Shown here piece after piece: positions 41,766-50,362 of a DNA stretch of 64,000 nucleotides. The notes beneath the pieces are model-generated. The model searched no databases. It saw nothing but the letters and a program-made list of their open reading frames with translations, and was not told where the DNA came from. The stretch spans positions 930,001 through 994,000 of the forward strand of contig NZ_JNLL01000001.1 of assembly GCF_000703085.1 (NCBI RefSeq), read 5' to 3'. The translations under genes were made by a program, and so were the position numbers. This DNA comes from Persephonella sp. KM09-Lau-8. GTDB lineage: Bacteria; Aquificota; Aquificia; Aquificales; Hydrogenothermaceae. Within the stretch, counting starts at the first letter, position 1. Each line of letters starts with the position of its first letter.

Positions 41766-43793
41766 TTAGTCCTCTGCCAAAGGTAGTTTTACAACAAATT
41801 CAGTTCCTTCATTTTCCTTACTTTTTACCTCAATCTCTCCTCTATGGTCTTTAATTATTTTACTTACGACAGAAAGACCAAGTCCTGTTCCTTTTTCCTT
41901 GGTAGTAAAGAATGGGTCAAATATATGCTCTATCATATCTTCAGGAATTCCTGGACCATAATCCTTTATAGAAATAACTGCATAGTTCTCATTTTTAGTC
42001 AGTCTTATATCTATCTTTCCTTCGTTATTCATTGCCTCTATAGAGTTCATTAATAGATTGATAAACACCCTTTGTAGTGCTGTTGCATCTCCATAAGTAT
42101 AAATATTTTTACCCAGTCTTTTACTTATCTTGACTTTTCTTTTTAGATTTTCAGGCAGGGCAAGATCAAGGGCTGATAGGAGAATTTCTCTTAAATCAAC
42201 CTTTTCTATTTTGTAATAAGAAGGCTTCGCGTAATTCAGTAGCCTTGTGATAATATCCGATGCCCTTTGACTGTTTTTCTCTATTTTTTCAGAAAGCTGG
42301 ATTATTCTGTTATCGTTGAGGGTTTTTGCCCTTTTCTTAATTGCAAAAGCTGAGGCAGCTATAGCTGCCAGTGGATTTTTTATATCATGGGATAAACCTG
42401 CTGCCATTTTACCTATAACTGCATGCTTTTCTGTCTCAAGGAGCTGTGCTTCTAATTTTTCTTTCTCGGTTATGTCCTCAATAATCAGAACTATATTTTC
42501 AGTGTCCTCAAAATCCCCTGATATCAGAGGAAGGGCCTTTACTCTATAAATTGAGCCTTTTTCACTGATTGATGAAAGCACCGTGTCTATTGTTTTTCTT
42601 TTCTGAATTACTTCTTTAAAATCTTTTTCAAGTGGTTGTAATTCAGGTATAAGATTAAAAATATCTGCATCAGGTTCCTGTCCAATTATATTAAGTAAGG
42701 CTTTATTTGCCTTTTCAATTCTGAAGTCTTTATTTACAATCGCTATTCCAATATCTACAGACTCAAATGTCTTTTCAAGTAATTCCTGTAGTTTATTAAT
42801 TTCCCTGAAATATATCGTTTTTGTTATTGATATTGCTACAGAGTTTGCGTAAGTAGACAGATATTCAATTTCCTTTGGCATAATGCCTTCCTTTTTGTAT
42901 ACTCCTAAGACTCCTATCTTTCCTTTGTCGCTTTTAAGTGGAAGAAAAATATGTTTTTCATCTGGAGATATAGTAATTTTTTCAATACTCTGGAATTTAT
43001 CACTCAGATAAGAATTTATATTTGGGAAAAATCCACTTTTTCTATAAATATTTTCCTCTCCTGTATCCACATATACAACAACCCCTGAATATCCCAGATT
43101 ATGTAATCCTTCAACAACCCTTTCAGCAATATCCTCTATTTTTGATGGAGAAAGTGTATAGTTACTTAGTTTAAAAATCTCTTTCAGCTTTTTATAAGTT
43201 ATTTTCAGTTCATCATCCAGCTGAGCATACTGCTTTTGAATTTCACTGTTTATAGCTCTATCAACAAAATCTCTATATCTTCTTTTTTCCTTTTCAAGTT
43301 CAATATAGAGTTTCTGAACACTTTCCTTTATAAAGAATAGAGCAAATAAAATATTTAAGATATAAAAAATTTGATGATTTATCGGATAACTTAAAGCAAC
43401 AGATAAAACAATTAAGACCCATAAGATAGTATCTGTTCTGCTATAATTTTTCTTGAACAAAAGAGGAAAAATAGCAAATGGAACAACGAAATTCAGATAT
43501 TCTGGTTTATAAAAAAAAAGTCCAATATAAACAATTAATACAAGCAAGTAATATGCTGTTATATATCCCTTTAATTTCCAGCTTTTGTCAGAAAAGATAT
43601 GGAGAAAAATAAAGTAAAAATACAGAATAAAAAGTGAATTAAGTAAGTTATAGTTCAATGGAAAACTGCTCAAAACAAAGATTACAACAAGAGTAAGGAA
43701 ACTCCCTGCCAGATATTTAACATTTTTTAAACCTTTTTCTAAAAAAACAACCCCTATCAGAAAAGTAAGCCAGGAAAAGATTAATGCTTGCAT
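41766..43793 (-). CDS. membrane sensor histidine kinase (GAF-PAS-HisKA)
   Basis: The 675-residue kinase has about six membrane segments (1-155), a coiled segment, a GAF-like domain (210-325), a PAS-like domain (340-440), a HisKA domain with phosphoacceptor H469 (LSHDIKNPLAAIAAS) and a HATPase domain (NLLMNSIEA, KDYGPGIPED, GTGLGLSVV). The N-terminal multi-span part looks like a membrane-embedded sensor. It starts directly after the FliN-like stop and is followed by the NtrC-type regulator, so it forms a two-component system with that protein. The stimulus is unknown. Confidence 0.9.
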   Translation of the reverse strand: MQALIFSWLTFLIGVVFLEKGLKNVKYLAGSFLTLVVIFVLSSFPLNYNLLNSLFILYFYFIFLHIFSDKSWKLKGYITAYYLLVLIVYIGLFFYKPEYLNFVVPFAIFPLLFKKNYSRTDTILWVLIVLSVALSYPINHQIFYILNILFALFFIKESVQKLYIELEKEKRRYRDFVDRAINSEIQKQYAQLDDELKITYKKLKEIFKLSNYTLSPSKIEDIAERVVEGLHNLGYSGVVVYVDTGEENIYRKSGFFPNINSYLSDKFQSIEKITISPDEKHIFLPLKSDKGKIGVLGVYKKEGIMPKEIEYLSTYANSVAISITKTIYFREINKLQELLEKTFESVDIGIAIVNKDFRIEKANKALLNIIGQEPDADIFNLIPELQPLEKDFKEVIQKRKTIDTVLSSISEKGSIYRVKALPLISGDFEDTENIVLIIEDITEKEKLEAQLLETEKHAVIGKMAAGLSHDIKNPLAAIAASAFAIKKRAKTLNDNRIIQLSEKIEKNSQRASDIITRLLNYAKPSYYKIEKVDLREILLSALDLALPENLKRKVKISKRLGKNIYTYGDATALQRVFINLLMNSIEAMNNEGKIDIRLTKNENYAVISIKDYGPGIPEDMIEHIFDPFFTTKEKGTGLGLSVVSKIIKDHRGEIEVKSKENEGTEFVVKLPLAED

Positions 43794-44387
43794 TTATAGG
43801 TATAACTCTGAAATTTTTAATTTATATTTATCTTCAATTTTTTTTAATACTCCTTTACCTATAATATTTCCATTTACAAGGAGTTCAACATCCATTTCTT
43901 TATTTTGGGATAAAAGTAGTTCTGAAGTTTCACCTAATTTGTCTATATCTGACAGAGGTATTCTTTTGTTAAATATCCTTATAACAACAGGTAAAGATAT
44001 TTTTGATGGTATCTGTGCTTTAGATACGGAATTTTCGCCAGTTTCCACATGATTATTGACTCTGGATACCCTCAGTACAATTCCATTTTCAAAATATTCA
44101 TCACTGGTTTTTATATTAAAGGATTTATCCCCAGGATAAAGTTCTATTTCTTCCAGAACTTCTGTGCGGAATTCATCTGAACCAAAAACTTCTTTGAATA
44201 GTTTTTCTCCCCAGTTTGATCCCTGTGAAAAAATCAGTTTTACCAGTAATTCCCCTTTGATTAAAAGAGTGTTTTCTCCATCAGTTACCATAAAGTAAGA
44301 TTCATTCAGATTTTGAGAATTTTTTATATCTACAGCCTGAATATCATCTATATCATTTGATAAAAATTCGAATATCTTTTCTTTAAT
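43794..44387 (-). CDS. FliN/SpoA-like flagellar C-ring protein with probable ATT start
   Basis: The C-terminal 70 residues match the FliN SpoA fold: ISLPVVIRIFNKRIPL, a DIDKLGETSELLL stretch, VELLVNGNIIGKGVL and DKYKLKISEL. An ATG at 44291 would give 165 residues, but the frame stays open upstream to the stop of the FliM-like gene, and AGGAGG at 44398-44393 lies 5 bases before an ATT at 44387. I prefer that start, giving 197 residues and an N-terminal domain with KEKIFEFLSND. It would sit on the cytoplasmic rotor and help switch flagellar rotation. The histidine kinase gene starts right after its stop. Confidence 0.7.
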   Translation of the reverse strand: MKEKIFEFLSNDIDDIQAVDIKNSQNLNESYFMVTDGENTLLIKGELLVKLIFSQGSNWGEKLFKEVFGSDEFRTEVLEEIELYPGDKSFNIKTSDEYFENGIVLRVSRVNNHVETGENSVSKAQIPSKISLPVVIRIFNKRIPLSDIDKLGETSELLLSQNKEMDVELLVNGNIIGKGVLKKIEDKYKLKISELYL

Positions 44388-44396
44388 GATGCCCTC

Positions 44397-45143
44397 CTAC
44401 TTTATCTGTTTTATGAACTCAGGCAGAATCTCTATTTCCTGTCCCTCTTTAAGCATGTCTACAGTTATATCAATAGGTTTAGAGATTATTTCAATCGAAA
44501 TCGGAATCATATCTTTCAGTTTTTTTAGTTTTTTCTTCCCTGCTGTCGTAGGTATTGAAAATATAAAAGGTGATATATCAACAGAGTCTATCATTGTTTT
44601 TTCAATCAATAGATTTATCTGAGCTGATTCACCTTTTATATCAAGCTTATACTCCAATTTTACAAACTCATCTTCATAAAACTGAATAACAGGTCTGTTA
44701 ATCTTCCTGAAGGTAAATGGAAAATCATTTTTAAGTTGTGAAACCATAGTGTCGGATAAATTATCAAGGAAACCCTGAATATTAAATTTTTCATTCAAGA
44801 GCTTATTCATATCAAAATTGAGATGTTCATTAATTATATCTTCAATATTTTCGGATACGCATACATACAACCTGTATTTCTTCTCAACATCATATCCATT
44901 TATATAAAAATTTCTTTCTGAAACTTGATTACCTACATACGAATTAAATGAAACGATATCAAACTGAACAGGAATATTTGATATTAGAAAGTTTTTTAGG
45001 GCATATCTATATTTATATGCTAAAAATTTATACTCTTCTTTAACTTTTAAAGAAGGTATAGTATAATCTTTCTCAGTCTGAGGAGAGCTGTAAACTTCTC
45101 TAAAGAGGGCATCTAATTCCTCTTTAGAAACTTTGTATTTCAT
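44397..45143 (-). CDS. FliM-like flagellar switch protein (divergent)
   Basis: The product is 248 residues from ATG 45143, where GAGG lies 6 bases upstream (a second ATG at 45146 is also possible). The N-terminus KVSKEELDALFREV resembles the CheY-binding motif of FliM. The C-terminus (IPISIEIISKPIDITVDMLKEGQEIEIL) resembles the first half of a SpoA domain but is truncated. The middle is divergent and shorter than in typical FliM (about 330 residues). With the FliN-like protein it would form the rotor C-ring. An alternative is a related, non-flagellar SpoA-type protein. Its TAG overlaps the next gene's ribosome binding site. Confidence 0.55.
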   Translation of the reverse strand: MKYKVSKEELDALFREVYSSPQTEKDYTIPSLKVKEEYKFLAYKYRYALKNFLISNIPVQFDIVSFNSYVGNQVSERNFYINGYDVEKKYRLYVCVSENIEDIINEHLNFDMNKLLNEKFNIQGFLDNLSDTMVSQLKNDFPFTFRKINRPVIQFYEDEFVKLEYKLDIKGESAQINLLIEKTMIDSVDISPFIFSIPTTAGKKKLKKLKDMIPISIEIISKPIDITVDMLKEGQEIEILPEFIKQIK

Positions 45144-45204
45144 CATCCCCCTCTTAGAAAAATCCTTAATTATAATTATATATGATTTTTTATAGGAAGG
45201 AAGA

Positions 45205-46359
45205 GTGAAAATAGAATTTTTCTCAGATAAAGAGAAATGGCTTTTCGGATATAAATATATAACTATAAACAAGCCTGTATATAGGGCTATTTATAAAAGT
45301 AATATATTAATCATCAATGATAAAATCTTCAAAACAACAAATCCACTACCGATACTTGAAAAACTTATCCTGAAAAACAAGCTCTTCGCAGCTGGATTTA
45401 TATCCTATGATTACAAAAAGCATTTATTCACTGAAAAATTTCATAAAAGAGATGATATTGGGTTACCTGAAATCTATATGATTCTTTTCAAATTCAAAAA
45501 TTTTGAACCTCAACTGAAAAAAGGGAAAAATTATTCCTCACAGATAAAAAAAATAAAACTTCCAGACAAAAATAGGTTTATTAAAATAGTCCAAAAAGCC
45601 AAGGAATACATATCAGAAGGAGACATTTATCAGGTAAATCTTGCCCATAGAATAGAAATAGAAGGATTTTTTAACACAGACCAAATTTTCAGAAATCTTA
45701 TCGAGTATCAGCCTGCTTCTTATCTGATGCATATACAGGAAAAGGATTTTTCTCTTATATCTGGCTCAATGGAGCTTTTTCTGGAAAAAACAGGCAATAA
45801 AATATATACCAAACCTATAAAAGGAACCCGTCCTGTTGGGAAAAATTACTACAACGAGCTTTTAAACTCAGAAAAGGAAAGGGCAGAAAATCTCATGATA
45901 ACAGACCTTATGAGAAATGACCTTGGGAGAATAGCTGTTGCAGGGTCTGTCCATGTTGAGAAATTATTTGATATTGAGGAATATAACTCTTTGCTACAAA
46001 TGGTTTCTACAGTATCAGCAGAAATAGATGAAAACACACTATTTAGCCATATCATAAAAAACACATTTCCCCCTGGCTCTGTAACAGGTGCCCCTAAAAA
46101 AAGGGCAATTGAGATTATTGACGAACTTGAGGAGCACAGAAGGGGAGTTTACTGCGGGATAACATTTTTAATTAAACCTAACCTCGATTTTGTATCAAGT
46201 GTGGCAATTAGACAGAGTATTTTCAAAAAAAACAGAGCATATATTTATGTTGGAAGTGGAATAGTAGCCGACTCTGACCCGAAAAGCGAGTATCAGGAAA
46301 CAATCCTAAAAGCAAAGGCAAATCTACAGGCTATGGGATTAAAACTTGATATTCTCTGA
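45205..46359 (+). CDS. pabB: aminodeoxychorismate synthase component I (PabB-like chorismate-binding enzyme)
   Basis: The 384-residue protein has the chorismate-binding fold: EGDIYQVNLAHR, KPIKGTRPVG, MITDLMRNDLGRIA, VSTVSAEI, FPPGSVTGAPKKRA and YVGSGIVADSDP. The motif usually SPElF is here SGSMELFLE. It most likely makes 4-amino-4-deoxychorismate for folate with a glutamine amidotransferase that is not adjacent. The start is a GTG at 45205 behind GGAAGGAAGA. It is divergent from the FliM-like gene and its end overlaps the recombinase gene by 21 bases. Confidence 0.85.
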   Translation: MKIEFFSDKEKWLFGYKYITINKPVYRAIYKSNILIINDKIFKTTNPLPILEKLILKNKLFAAGFISYDYKKHLFTEKFHKRDDIGLPEIYMILFKFKNFEPQLKKGKNYSSQIKKIKLPDKNRFIKIVQKAKEYISEGDIYQVNLAHRIEIEGFFNTDQIFRNLIEYQPASYLMHIQEKDFSLISGSMELFLEKTGNKIYTKPIKGTRPVGKNYYNELLNSEKERAENLMITDLMRNDLGRIAVAGSVHVEKLFDIEEYNSLLQMVSTVSAEIDENTLFSHIIKNTFPPGSVTGAPKKRAIEIIDELEEHRRGVYCGITFLIKPNLDFVSSVAIRQSIFKKNRAYIYVGSGIVADSDPKSEYQETILKAKANLQAMGLKLDIL

Positions 46360-47217
46360 AAGGGCTTTGGTAGCTTTCAGAAGCTGCTTCTGGCCAACCT
46401 TTGCATATCTTGCTGTTGTAATAGGAGAAGCATGGCCTAAAAGCTCCTGAATAATCCTCAGTTCAGCTCCAGATTGTAGCGCAATAGTTGCAGCTGTATG
46501 CCTGAGTTTATGGGGATGCAGGGATAGACCTGCTCTTTTTCCTATATTTACAATCATCTTCCACAGGGAATAGTAAGAGATAGGAAATACCTGTGGCGAG
46601 TTATTAAACTTCAGATACTCTATAAACAATTTCATAGGCTCACCTGTTATTGGAACTTCCCGCTCTTTATCTCCTTTTCCTGTAACCCTTATATACATAA
46701 TATCTTCTTCAGAAAAATCTGTGTTATAAATGGCATTCACATTAAAAATCTTTCCCTCTTTTTCCAGCAAAATATTATCCCGTTTTATTCCTAATAGCTC
46801 AGATGCCCTAAGCCCTGTTGTGAGCATAATAACCACAATAACCCTTTCTGTTAATGTTTTTGTTGCGTTTATAACCCTTTTTATCTCTTCGTGAGATAAG
46901 GCAGAAGGTATTTTCTGGGATATTTTCGGTCTATGGGAACGGGTTATTGGGGATGAGCTTACTATCTCTAAATCTATCAGATACTCAAAAAATGAGTTTA
47001 TACAGGCAAGCTTTCTAGCAATTGTTGAGGATTTTTTTCTGTTTGATTGCAGAACCATTCTAAATTTTGCAATATCAGCCTTTGTTACCTTTTCTACATC
47101 TTTATCCCCAACAATCTGAGCAAACTGCTTAAGGTCAGACCTGTAGTTCTTTATTGTATGTGGGGACTTATCGGATATATAAGATAAAAACAGCTCAACA
47201 CATTCGGAAATTTTCAT
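46339..47217 (-). CDS. tyrosine recombinase, XerC/XerD/XerA type
   Basis: The 292-residue integrase has an N-terminal SAM-like DNA-binding domain (1-95) and a C-terminal catalytic domain with all expected residues: R137 (GLRASE), K181 (GKGDK), H236 and R239 (HPHKLRH), H262 (GHASP) and Y271 (ARYAK). The size and compactness fit a chromosome-dimer-resolving Xer protein rather than a phage integrase. No integrated element is seen beside it. It is probably cytoplasmic and acts at a dif-like site. Confidence 0.88.
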   Translation of the reverse strand: MKISECVELFLSYISDKSPHTIKNYRSDLKQFAQIVGDKDVEKVTKADIAKFRMVLQSNRKKSSTIARKLACINSFFEYLIDLEIVSSSPITRSHRPKISQKIPSALSHEEIKRVINATKTLTERVIVVIMLTTGLRASELLGIKRDNILLEKEGKIFNVNAIYNTDFSEEDIMYIRVTGKGDKEREVPITGEPMKLFIEYLKFNNSPQVFPISYYSLWKMIVNIGKRAGLSLHPHKLRHTAATIALQSGAELRIIQELLGHASPITTARYAKVGQKQLLKATKALSENIKF

Positions 47218-47282
47218 CTTGCCAAACTACCTATAAATATTAAAATTTATAATACCATTAAAACAACTTTTTGAGGATTTAA

Positions 47283-47822
47283 ATGGGTATCGAAGCAAAA
47301 CATTTACCCAGATACACAATAGATGATTATAAGCAATGGGAAGGTGATTGGGAGCTTATAGAAGGAACTGCTTATGCTATGGCTCCATCTCCATTAGGTA
47401 GACATCAGAAAGTTGCCTTTGAAATAGGAAGGCAGATAGCAAATCAACTGGAAAAATGCAATAAAAATTGTAAAGTTTACCCTGAGCTTGACTGGATTAT
47501 ATCAGAAGATACTGTAGTCAGGCCTGATTTAATCGTAATATGCAAAGATATAGAGGAGTACTTAAAGGAAACTCCTGAAATAGTTGTTGAAGTAGTTTCA
47601 AAATCAACAGCATACAAAGATGAGCATATAAAATTTGAGATATACGAAAGGGAAAAAGTGCCCTTTTATATTCTGGCCTATCCGGATATTAAAAAGGTAA
47701 GGGTTTTTCAGCTTGTAAATGGAAAATTTGATAAATATTTTGATGGTGAAGATGGCTTTCTTGAAATTAGTTTAAAAAATGGCTGCAAGGCTAAAATAGA
47801 TATAAAAGAACTTTTTGCTTGA
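47283..47822 (+). CDS. Uma2-family (DUF820) putative endonuclease
   Basis: The 179-residue protein has a PD-(D/E)XK-like core with P81-D82 (VVRPDLIVI), E103 (EIVVEVVSKST), and D113 and K117 in the following helix. The N-terminus YTIDDYKQWEGDWELIEG is characteristic of Uma2 proteins. The family is abundant in cyanobacteria and often linked to mobile or toxin-like contexts, but its substrate is not established. It stands alone, convergent with ubiX, close to a tyrosine recombinase gene. Confidence 0.82.
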   Translation: MGIEAKHLPRYTIDDYKQWEGDWELIEGTAYAMAPSPLGRHQKVAFEIGRQIANQLEKCNKNCKVYPELDWIISEDTVVRPDLIVICKDIEEYLKETPEIVVEVVSKSTAYKDEHIKFEIYEREKVPFYILAYPDIKKVRVFQLVNGKFDKYFDGEDGFLEISLKNGCKAKIDIKELFA

Positions 47823-48395
47823 TTATCCCTGCCATCTTTTGTATAAATTGTGCTTTATTCCGAAACTATCCAGCACCTTACCAACAACAAAATCAACCAT
47901 ATCTTCTATTGTTTGAGGTTTATGATAAAATCCTGGAGAAGCCACCGAAACAATAGCACCTGCCTGTGTAATCCTTTCCATATTCTGTAAATGTATCAGG
48001 GATAAAGGCATTTCCCTGACAAGCAGATATAGTTTTTTTCTCTCCTTCAACGCAACATCACAAACTCTATGAATTAGATTGTTAGATAATCCATTTGCAA
48101 TAGCTCCTAATGTTCCTGTAGAACAGGGGGCGATAATAACCCCTTCTGTCTGCACAAGTTTAGAACCGCTTGCCACAGAGGCATATATCTGGTCCTGAGA
48201 ATAAAAATTACAGTTTTCAGGTAGATTTTTTAAAAATTTATCTTTTGAAATATCTATTTCTTTCTCCATAACGGTGAAAGCACTATCTGACACAATAAGA
48301 TGGACTATAAAATCTTTAGACAATATCTCAAGAAGCCGTAACCCATAAACAGTTCCACTTGCTCCTGTGATACACAAAACAATTTCCTTTTCCAT
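47823..48395 (-). CDS. ubiX: flavin prenyltransferase UbiX
   Basis: The product is 190 residues from ATG 48395, or 195 if the ATG at 48410 is used; neither has a good ribosome binding site. The protein starts with CITGASGTVYGLRLLE, the flavin-binding loop, and has VSDSAF, APCSTGTLGAIANGLSNNLI and VREMPLSLIHLQNM, all typical. It prenylates FMN to make the cofactor of UbiD-type decarboxylases used in quinone synthesis. UbiD is not in the window. The gene is convergent with the Uma2 gene. Confidence 0.9.
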   Translation of the reverse strand: MEKEIVLCITGASGTVYGLRLLEILSKDFIVHLIVSDSAFTVMEKEIDISKDKFLKNLPENCNFYSQDQIYASVASGSKLVQTEGVIIAPCSTGTLGAIANGLSNNLIHRVCDVALKERKKLYLLVREMPLSLIHLQNMERITQAGAIVSVASPGFYHKPQTIEDMVDFVVGKVLDSFGIKHNLYKRWQG

Positions 48396-48471
48396 ACTGG
48401 AATGATACATATTTTTGAGTTGTATATCAATGGGATATAATAAATCTGAGATATAGAAGGAGGTAATATAA

Positions 48472-49038
48472 ATAGAAAACTTAGAGCAGTTTCTTCAACA
48501 TTACGGATATATCGCCGTATTTGTAGGCACATTTTTAGAGGGTGAACTATTTTTGCTGGTTGTAGGGTTTTTCATAAAAATGAAACTGCTCAATCCATAC
48601 ATATCCCTTGTTTCTGCAATGGCAGGGGCTTTTCTGCATGAACTTTTGTATTTTTTTGCAGGAAAATGGAAAGGTCGCCAGATTTTATTACGGAACAGGC
48701 ATACCCGTAGGGAATACCGAAGGGCAAAAAAACTTTTACAAAAATATGGGGTGCTGTCTATTTTTATAATCAGATTTTTATATGGAATGAGAATTGTTCC
48801 TATGATGCTGATGGGTGCCACAGGCTTTGGCACAGGTAAATTTATATTTTTTAATCTGATATCACTTTTCTTCTGGGCGGTTATTTATCTATCTATCGGA
48901 TACTTTTTTGGAAAAGCAGCAGAGCATTTCTTTGGACAGGCAAAGGAATACTACTTTGCGGCAGTAGCATTCCTTATTCTTGTGTTATTTGTTGTTCTTA
49001 TATACCCCAAATTAATGGACAAATGGAAAAAAGCCTGA
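48472..49038 (+). CDS. DedA-family membrane protein with probable ATA start
   Basis: The product is 188 residues. Family members begin with a stretch like LEQFLQHYGYIAVFVGTFLEG ahead of FLLVVGFF; this stretch is in frame but begins with ATA at 48472, directly after an in-frame TAA, and no ATG, GTG or TTG lies between it and 48553. GGAGG sits 8 bases upstream of the ATA. The rest matches DedA: RRAKKLLQKYGVLSIFIIRFLYGMRIVPMMLMGATG and several membrane segments. DedA proteins act as flippases for undecaprenyl phosphate or phospholipids. The gene is convergent with the stress-protein gene. Confidence 0.78.
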   Translation: MENLEQFLQHYGYIAVFVGTFLEGELFLLVVGFFIKMKLLNPYISLVSAMAGAFLHELLYFFAGKWKGRQILLRNRHTRREYRRAKKLLQKYGVLSIFIIRFLYGMRIVPMMLMGATGFGTGKFIFFNLISLFFWAVIYLSIGYFFGKAAEHFFGQAKEYYFAAVAFLILVLFVVLIYPKLMDKWKKA

Positions 49039-49473
49039 TTATTTAACAACCAGAACTGACTGGTTTGCATATTTAACAAGGTTTCCGGCCGTTGTTCCAA
49101 GAAGCATTCTTTTGAAACCACCAACACCCCTGTGTCCTACAACAATCAAATCACAGCCATTATCATCAGCATAAGCCATTAACTCCTCTGCCGGTTCCCC
49201 TTCAAGAACTTTTGTAATTGCTTCAACACCCCTTTGTGCTGCGATTTCTTTTGCTTCTTTTAGGTATTTTTCTTCTTTTGAAATCTCTTCCTTTTCATAC
49301 TCTTCTATTTCTTCAGGAGGAATATAATCTATTGCAGCAAATTCAAAAGGTCTAACAACCCCAACTATGTGCAGCTCACTTCCACAACTTTTTGCAAGGT
49401 CTATAGCTTTATCAAGGGCTTTTTTACTGGACTCTGAACCATCATAACCAACGAGAATTTTTTTATAGGACAT
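49039..49473 (-). CDS. universal stress protein (UspA family)
   Basis: The 144-residue protein has the UspA fold: KKILVGYDGSESSKKAL at the start and the ATP-binding motif GHRGVGGFKRMLLGTTAGNLV at the end (G-x2-G-x9-G-T). It probably binds ATP, and the role is in stress survival. AAGGAGG lies 9 bases upstream of its ATG. It is a single gene, convergent with dedA. Confidence 0.92.
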   Translation of the reverse strand: MSYKKILVGYDGSESSKKALDKAIDLAKSCGSELHIVGVVRPFEFAAIDYIPPEEIEEYEKEEISKEEKYLKEAKEIAAQRGVEAITKVLEGEPAEELMAYADDNGCDLIVVGHRGVGGFKRMLLGTTAGNLVKYANQSVLVVK

Positions 49474-49531
49474 TTTGTGTTCCTCCTTAATTGAATCGAC
49501 CTTTTTAGTTTATCATACTGGGAGATAATCT

Positions 49532-50362
49532 TTAAAATTGTTGCTTCTGAACCGAATTTCCAGATTCTGTTTTTTCATTAACCACTTTATAAGCCAAAGC
49601 ATAATAATTTGACATAAAAAACAACATATATAGATATACAAAAGAATAAACAATAGAAATATATAAATAATTTAGAACCAATAAAGCATTAAATTCATTT
49701 TCATCTAAAGTTTCCAGTGCAGGAAATGTCGGAATTAAAGATATAGCAAATACAATACCCACCACCAGAATAACTAAAAAAGCCTTCAAAGAAAGAACAA
49801 AATACTTTAGATTGAAAAGCACCTTTTTCAGCTCAGAAGGAAAAGCAAAAGAGAACATTGTTTTCAGAGCATCTTCAAATGTTTCTGACCTTAAAGCAAT
49901 TTTACCTATGATATAAGGATACATATAAAACATAATAGAAATTACAACTAAAAATGGTAAAACATATAAAGCATCATAAAAATCTAAATTACCTCCTGTT
50001 GCACCTTTAAAAATAATAAGAAATATAGGAAGAAAAACCAAAATAAAAGAAATAACCATAATTATAATAAATCCAAGAAAAACAGCAGTGGCTTTAATTA
50101 TTTCATCGAAAAGGAGCTTTTTAAATTCCAGTGAAGCCAATTTATTTTTATATTCCTGTTGTGAAAAACTTTCATCAAAGATTTTTGCTATCTTTAAAGA
50201 TGCTGAAAAAAACACAATCTCTATCAGTATAGTAATATTTCCAATAATAGGAATAAAAGATATTATTGTTGTCCCCAACATTAGAAAAAACAATATCCAG
50301 AATAATTTTGGAATTCCAAAAACAGAAAAAGCCCAGCCCCAAACATCCTTAAAATTTTTCAT
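49532..50362 (-). CDS. hypothetical multi-span membrane protein
   Basis: This 276-residue protein has about five or six membrane segments (near 15-35, 95-120, 135-155, 185-210, 235-255) and otherwise only short loops. The pattern is like generic DUF-type or glycerophosphoryl-diester-like membrane proteins, but I do not recognise a family. It follows leuS on the same strand by 18 bases, so it may be cotranscribed. No function is proposed. Confidence 0.55.
   Translation of the reverse strand: MKNFKDVWGWAFSVFGIPKLFWILFFLMLGTTIISFIPIIGNITILIEIVFFSASLKIAKIFDESFSQQEYKNKLASLEFKKLLFDEIIKATAVFLGFIIIMVISFILVFLPIFLIIFKGATGGNLDFYDALYVLPFLVVISIMFYMYPYIIGKIALRSETFEDALKTMFSFAFPSELKKVLFNLKYFVLSLKAFLVILVVGIVFAISLIPTFPALETLDENEFNALLVLNYLYISIVYSFVYLYMLFFMSNYYALAYKVVNEKTESGNSVQKQQF

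Follow-up and report, generated by a model that had tools for sequence, protein, structure and literature searches.

The classic AUU-start gene is infC, which begins with AUU, AUA or AUC and is autoregulated by IF3, and to our knowledge few conserved non-canonical starts have been documented outside infC. In Staphylococcus aureus, conserved AUA or AUU starts are described for infC, ccpN (AUA) and cvfC1 (AUU), and starts of this kind gave about 10 % of the expression of an AUG reporter in poor medium (PMC13009471). In Streptomyces, the GTC start of sigR is described as repressed by IF3 (PMC5472188). In the open-licence literature, we found no report of such starts for DedA genes or for the Hydrogenothermaceae or Aquificota, and in a genome paper on the Aquificales the relevant passage mentions only that starts at ATT and CTG had been considered (PMC4227106). 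Here, we examined a gene of the DedA family in Persephonella sp. KM09-Lau-8. The comparative evidence indicates that the gene has a real, conserved AUA start and is a new case of a known class of non-canonical starts.

The DedA gene and its predicted start

The window analysed is a stretch of 64,000 nucleotides, and all positions below refer to it unless another contig is named. The gene (positions 48472–49038, forward strand) is an open frame of 188 codons that runs from ATA at 48472–48474, the predicted start codon, to TGA at 49036–49038, and it was identified as encoding a DedA/VTT-domain membrane protein from the reading frame, the Pfam match and the orthologs. Residues 24–144 match PF09335 (VTT) with 50.7 bits against a curated cut-off of 33.9 (E value 3.2e-13). 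The protein falls below every NCBIfam cut-off, including that of the UptA equivalog (42.7 bits vs 250), and no solved structure matched its profile at 0.01.

A TAA stop codon at 48469–48471 adjoins the ATA on its 5′ side, and hence an N-terminal extension is ruled out. Between this stop and the TTG at 48553–48555, which is codon 28 and the first canonical codon in the frame, there is no ATG, GTG or TTG. A Shine-Dalgarno sequence, AAGGAGGT, lies at 48457–48464, and its GGAGG (48459–48463) is separated from the ATA by a gap of 8 nt. These features had all been noted in an earlier reading of the sequence on its own, which proposed ATA as the start, and when the sequence was re-read each proved to be exact. 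The Shine-Dalgarno match has a length of 8, a length reached by only 28 of the 446 genes surveyed in this genome. Further upstream, a TATAAT at 48436–48441 is a likely −10 element, as its position, 36–38 nt upstream of the ATA, is kept in 13 of the 14 genomes of the genus; the transcription start placed from it suggests a short leader of about 25 nt. A generic promoter scan returned no full promoter on the forward strand. Rfam gave no regulatory RNA match in the part of the window from 43000 to 50000, and no hairpin shared at the start was seen by eye, the predicted folds differing among the orthologs.

Any annotation restricted to canonical starts would choose the TTG at 48553, leaving the stretch ahead of it untranslated. 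We consider this very improbable. When this genome was compared with genome G009, 22 of the 27 residues encoded upstream of the first canonical start were identical and the codons differed synonymously 11 times, more than in any other of the 468 ortholog pairs, and thus the codons before codon 28 evolve as protein. This bears out the earlier statement that conserved N-terminal residues are encoded upstream of the TTG. Furthermore, the Shine-Dalgarno sequence sits at the ATA, and the TTG itself is not shared: the frame reaches its first canonical codon at number 29 in G009 and at number 37 in G006. In the predicted structure, helix 1 is formed by residues 2–23 (mean pLDDT 79, 19 sequences) and would be lost with a start at the TTG, so that annotation allowing only ATG, GTG and TTG would cut this helix off a whole group of proteins. 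The distant homologs also indicate that the protein begins near the ATA. Of the 28 that were fetched, 25 could be read, and every one of these has a canonical start between codons −1 and +3 relative to the aligned position.

Conservation and origin of the start in the Hydrogenothermaceae

Orthologs with 56–100 % identity are present in 40 of 41 Hydrogenothermaceae genomes, and the start could be read in all 40; the remaining genome, G025, has only a distant relative, which was left out of the ortholog counts. Twenty-six orthologs lack an ATG, TTG or CTG immediately 5′ of the aligned codon. Of these, 24 have ATA at this position and two have ATC, while the codon preceding it takes 11 different forms. 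In the genus that includes the window (g1), ATA was found in all 14 genomes, and in 12 of them a stop codon, TAA or TAG, adjoins it on the 5′ side. The codon is likewise ATA in every genome of g2 (one), g5 (six) and g6 (two), and g4 has ATA once and ATC twice. Conservation of this codon next to one that varies freely, and that is in many cases a stop, places the start at ATA or ATC, and support for the proposed ATA start thus comes from 24 genomes in which the frame opens with ATA and no canonical codon precedes it.

The possibility that the true codon is ATG and that the ATA arose from a sequencing or assembly error was worth considering, given that AUA starts are very rare and that a single base change would repair the codon. 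However, the orthologs refute it: 24 different genomes, among them every one of the 14 in the genus, have ATA at this codon, two have ATC and none has ATG, and we give it almost no weight. The earlier suggestion of two sequence errors, one here and one at a second gene 4 kb away, is thereby refuted.

In the other 14 orthologs, a canonical codon or CTG precedes the aligned position. TTG lies directly before ATA in g3 (one genome) and g10 (one), and CTG directly before ATA in g9 (three). In g7 (two) and g8 (seven), the preceding codon is ATG, which is followed by ATA, ATC, ATT or GTT; the genera with ATG one codon upstream are Sulfurihydrogenibium and one further genus. Hence, use of the AUA start is not universal in the family. 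In the Sulfurihydrogenibium-type genomes of g8 (loci L064–L070), the DedA gene comes immediately after what appears to be a tRNA gene's 3′ end, and the two may be co-transcribed.

In the protein tree, the genes from g7 and g8 fall outside the remaining 31, which form a supported group (96/85). The gene from g10 branches next, followed by a group of 30 (95/86) that consists of the genes starting with ATH (H being A, C or T), with those of g3 and g9 nested inside. The tree took in seven of 28 outgroup loci, and as the outgroup branches are long only the order within the family was relied on. The simplest story is that an ancestral gene beginning ATG-ATA lost its ATG and came to start at what had been its second codon; with the root placed by an outgroup on long branches, this direction of change is likely rather than proven. 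The TTG and CTG codons found before ATA could either have been gained later or be remnants.

The strength of the ribosome binding site varies. Among the 26 orthologs with an ATH start, 21 have a Shine-Dalgarno sequence that matches over 5 or more bases and lies 5–10 nt ahead of the codon, and the other five have a weaker one. In four genomes of g1 (G001, G003, G006 and G013) the site is degraded to GGGGG, with a match of 4 or less, and compensation by a strong Shine-Dalgarno sequence is therefore not universal.

These data bear on whether the weak start is itself maintained. It would be possible for the gene to have lost its ATG and drifted to a weaker codon, which the cell could tolerate since it requires little of the protein, with the start conserved and no control linked to IF3. 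The ATG-ATA arrangement in g7 and g8, which lie outside the rest on the tree, is compatible with this, as are TTG-ATA in g10 and g3, CTG-ATA in g9 and the four degraded Shine-Dalgarno sites. However, ATA is one base from ATG, and in 26 genomes from five genera that single change has not occurred, although the codon before it has varied freely. While tolerance of a weak codon retains an appreciable minority share of our confidence, the missing ATG points to a weak start being selected for, whether or not control by IF3 is involved. As ATA is the most frequent isoleucine codon in this genome (51.6 %), retention of exactly ATA is slightly less striking than it would otherwise be. As five genera have retained this naturally occurring AUA start, it can be tested directly whether a bad start codon is selected for.

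Conserved AUH starts and a probable frameshift elsewhere in the genome

To assess the frequency of such genes, about 0.8 Mb each of this genome (39 % of its 2,074,826 bases) and of G009 were compared. The resulting 468 ortholog pairs were ranked by how many synonymous differences precede the first canonical start. The surveyed sequence was taken in blocks of 0.4 Mb, the first centred on the DedA gene and the second on infC, which served as positive control, and the outcome is thus not a blind rate. The DedA gene ranked first with 11 differences, followed by infC (8, ATT), a copA-like P-type ATPase gene (8), a short doubtful ORF (5) and a FliN-like gene (3, ATT). One further gene has 3 differences, with no Shine-Dalgarno sequence at that point, and all others have 2 or fewer. 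Two ORFs of 52 and 81 aa, for which one or both genomes offer no canonical start, were dropped. Two others, G000_744 (90 aa, with 20 identical residues ahead of its first canonical codon) and G000_1191 (80 aa, with eight), were set aside as probably not genes.

Only infC, the DedA gene and the FliN-like gene were found to have a conserved AUH start, and there was no other in the 468 pairs from 39 % of the genome. Further conserved cases thus exist in this genome, contrary to the outcome, a lack of such cases, that the sequence-only reading had named as one that would refute it. Its broader suggestion of unusual initiation in this organism does not hold in a general sense, with three AUH starts in 468 pairs and an ordinary CAU initiator; on this comparison, AUH starts are confined to a small set of genes and do not reflect an altered initiation rule.

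At little cost, a comparison of the stretch that precedes the first canonical start brings such genes to light, and infC was recovered. The check proposed earlier, a scan of the genome for strong ribosome binding sites followed by ATA or ATT, was made with the pattern AGGAGGN{4,9}ATH, which was not enriched (409 hits vs 463 for the reversed pattern). Therefore, only the comparative evidence carries weight, and pattern counts cannot find genes of this type. Strong Shine-Dalgarno sequences before non-canonical codons were also listed for two genome pairs, giving 25 and 17 sites; those other than the DedA and FliN-like genes were judged on inspection to be intragenic chance matches. The pair G000/G006 was less useful, since at such high identity the sequence outside genes is conserved too.

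The FliN-like gene (positions 43794–44387, reverse strand) was recognized by its FliMN_C domain and from loci in the same genus, and begins with ATT at 44387–44385. It is the ATT case 4 kb away to which the sequence-only reading had linked the ATA, a pairing that was correct. The ATT is invariant in 12 of 12 same-genus loci, each with TAGGAGG 5 or 6 nt before it; G003 and G007, also among the 14 genomes of the genus, have a distant match only. At the corresponding position, ATA is found in G015 (g3), and G017 (g5) has an ATG nearby. In the window, the TAG of TAGGAGG is the stop codon of the preceding gene, and given this overlap the two genes are probably translationally coupled. One of the 12 loci has an internal stop: the FliN-like gene of G010 (L039) contains one internal TAA and is either a broken gene or the product of an assembly error.

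The copA-like gene was rejected as a case of an unusual start, as it proved to be read in two frames in both this genome (G000) and G009. It lies in locus L220, on the reverse strand of contig C1 of G000 at about 1,266,250–1,268,600, and is also found in C1 of G009. The metal-binding domain is encoded in one frame as far as a run of eight A residues, beyond which the ATPase follows in the −1 frame. Programmed frameshifting is known for copA of Escherichia coli, and from the sequences a −1 frameshift conserved in the two species is probably programmed here too. A probable conserved −1 frameshift elsewhere in the same genome raises the question of whether the DedA protein, too, is begun at an upstream start in another frame, with a shift into the DedA frame. 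However, between −45 and +6 no out-of-frame canonical start with a Shine-Dalgarno sequence that would be read past the ATA was found in 25 of the 26 orthologs, G014 being the exception, and by inspection no slippery run shared in the leader was noticed. A start followed by a frameshift hence seems most unlikely for the DedA gene.

Proposed initiation at AUA and comparison with known systems

Forty-one tRNA genes were found, and ARAGORN read the anticodon in 34 of them. Lengths of 80–90 nt are typical of tRNAs for Leu, Ser and Tyr, and the seven genes with no anticodon reading are of this length. Three tRNAs have the anticodon CAT, and one of the three carries a C1-A72 mismatch and a GGG/CCC anticodon stem, which we take to be the marks of the initiator. 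Among the 34 of 41 tRNA genes read, none has the anticodon UAT (UAU in the RNA). A dedicated initiator tRNA for AUA would account for conservation of the ATA, but this we think highly improbable, in view of the missing UAT anticodon, the single initiator-like tRNA among the three with CAT, the ATC in two orthologs and the ATT in other genes. With only an ordinary CAU initiator and no UAU tRNA among those read, it is probably this initiator that decodes the AUA, through a third-base mismatch. Pairs weakened by a third-base mismatch are described as being excluded by IF3 in vitro (Katoh and Suga, PMC10158994). The infC gene starts with ATT in the readable Hydrogenothermaceae genes, that of this genome included, and this conserved ATT points to discrimination by IF3 in these genomes. 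Among the infC loci L186–L215 (families f1 and f3), several genomes of f3 have AAG-CTG after the Shine-Dalgarno sequence, suggesting a CTG start.

The explanation that we favour, and consider likely as a whole, combines these elements. The 30S subunit would bind the strong Shine-Dalgarno sequence on the short leader of the mRNA, the ordinary fMet-tRNA (anticodon CAU) would be placed on the AUA at 48472 with its third base mismatched, and IF3 would tend to reject the complex, leading to slow initiation and a low level of DedA protein. From the sequence, we infer that ribosomes start at the AUA and that the product begins with fMet, and by analogy we infer that the yield is low and would rise when IF3 is scarce. 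The AUA start is probably sensitive to IF3, as judged from the systems discussed below, and is probably a built-in brake on the amount of DedA protein. More tentatively, and with considerable doubt, the DedA gene (AUA) and the FliN-like gene (AUU), 4 kb apart, may form a small regulon with infC that senses IF3. If so, all three would be translated more when IF3 is scarce relative to ribosomes, and a membrane transporter and a component of the flagellar switch would be tied to translation capacity in the Hydrogenothermaceae.

Among the known systems, infC resembles the DedA gene in having an AUH start beside a Shine-Dalgarno sequence that is kept over a bacterial family. Unlike infC, the DedA gene has AUA, and no feedback loop is expected as DedA takes no part in initiation. 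The E. coli pcnB gene is similar in that a weak start limits an ordinary gene, though its codon is reported to be AUU and the organism is a proteobacterium. At the level of the protein, DedA has the VTT domain in common with the undecaprenyl-phosphate transporters of the UptA type, whose model it matches weakly. For sigR, as described, the rare start is also conserved, holds the amount of protein down and was missed by automatic annotation, but the codon is GTC and the dependence on IF3 is experimental (PMC5472188). The ccpN and cvfC1 genes of Staphylococcus and Bacillus, as reported, share with DedA a conserved start of this type, AUA in the DedA gene, a strong Shine-Dalgarno sequence and a role unrelated to translation, but they are different genes in another phylum and their starts were established by ribosome profiling and reporters, (PMC13009471), whereas that of the DedA gene is supported by sequence comparison.
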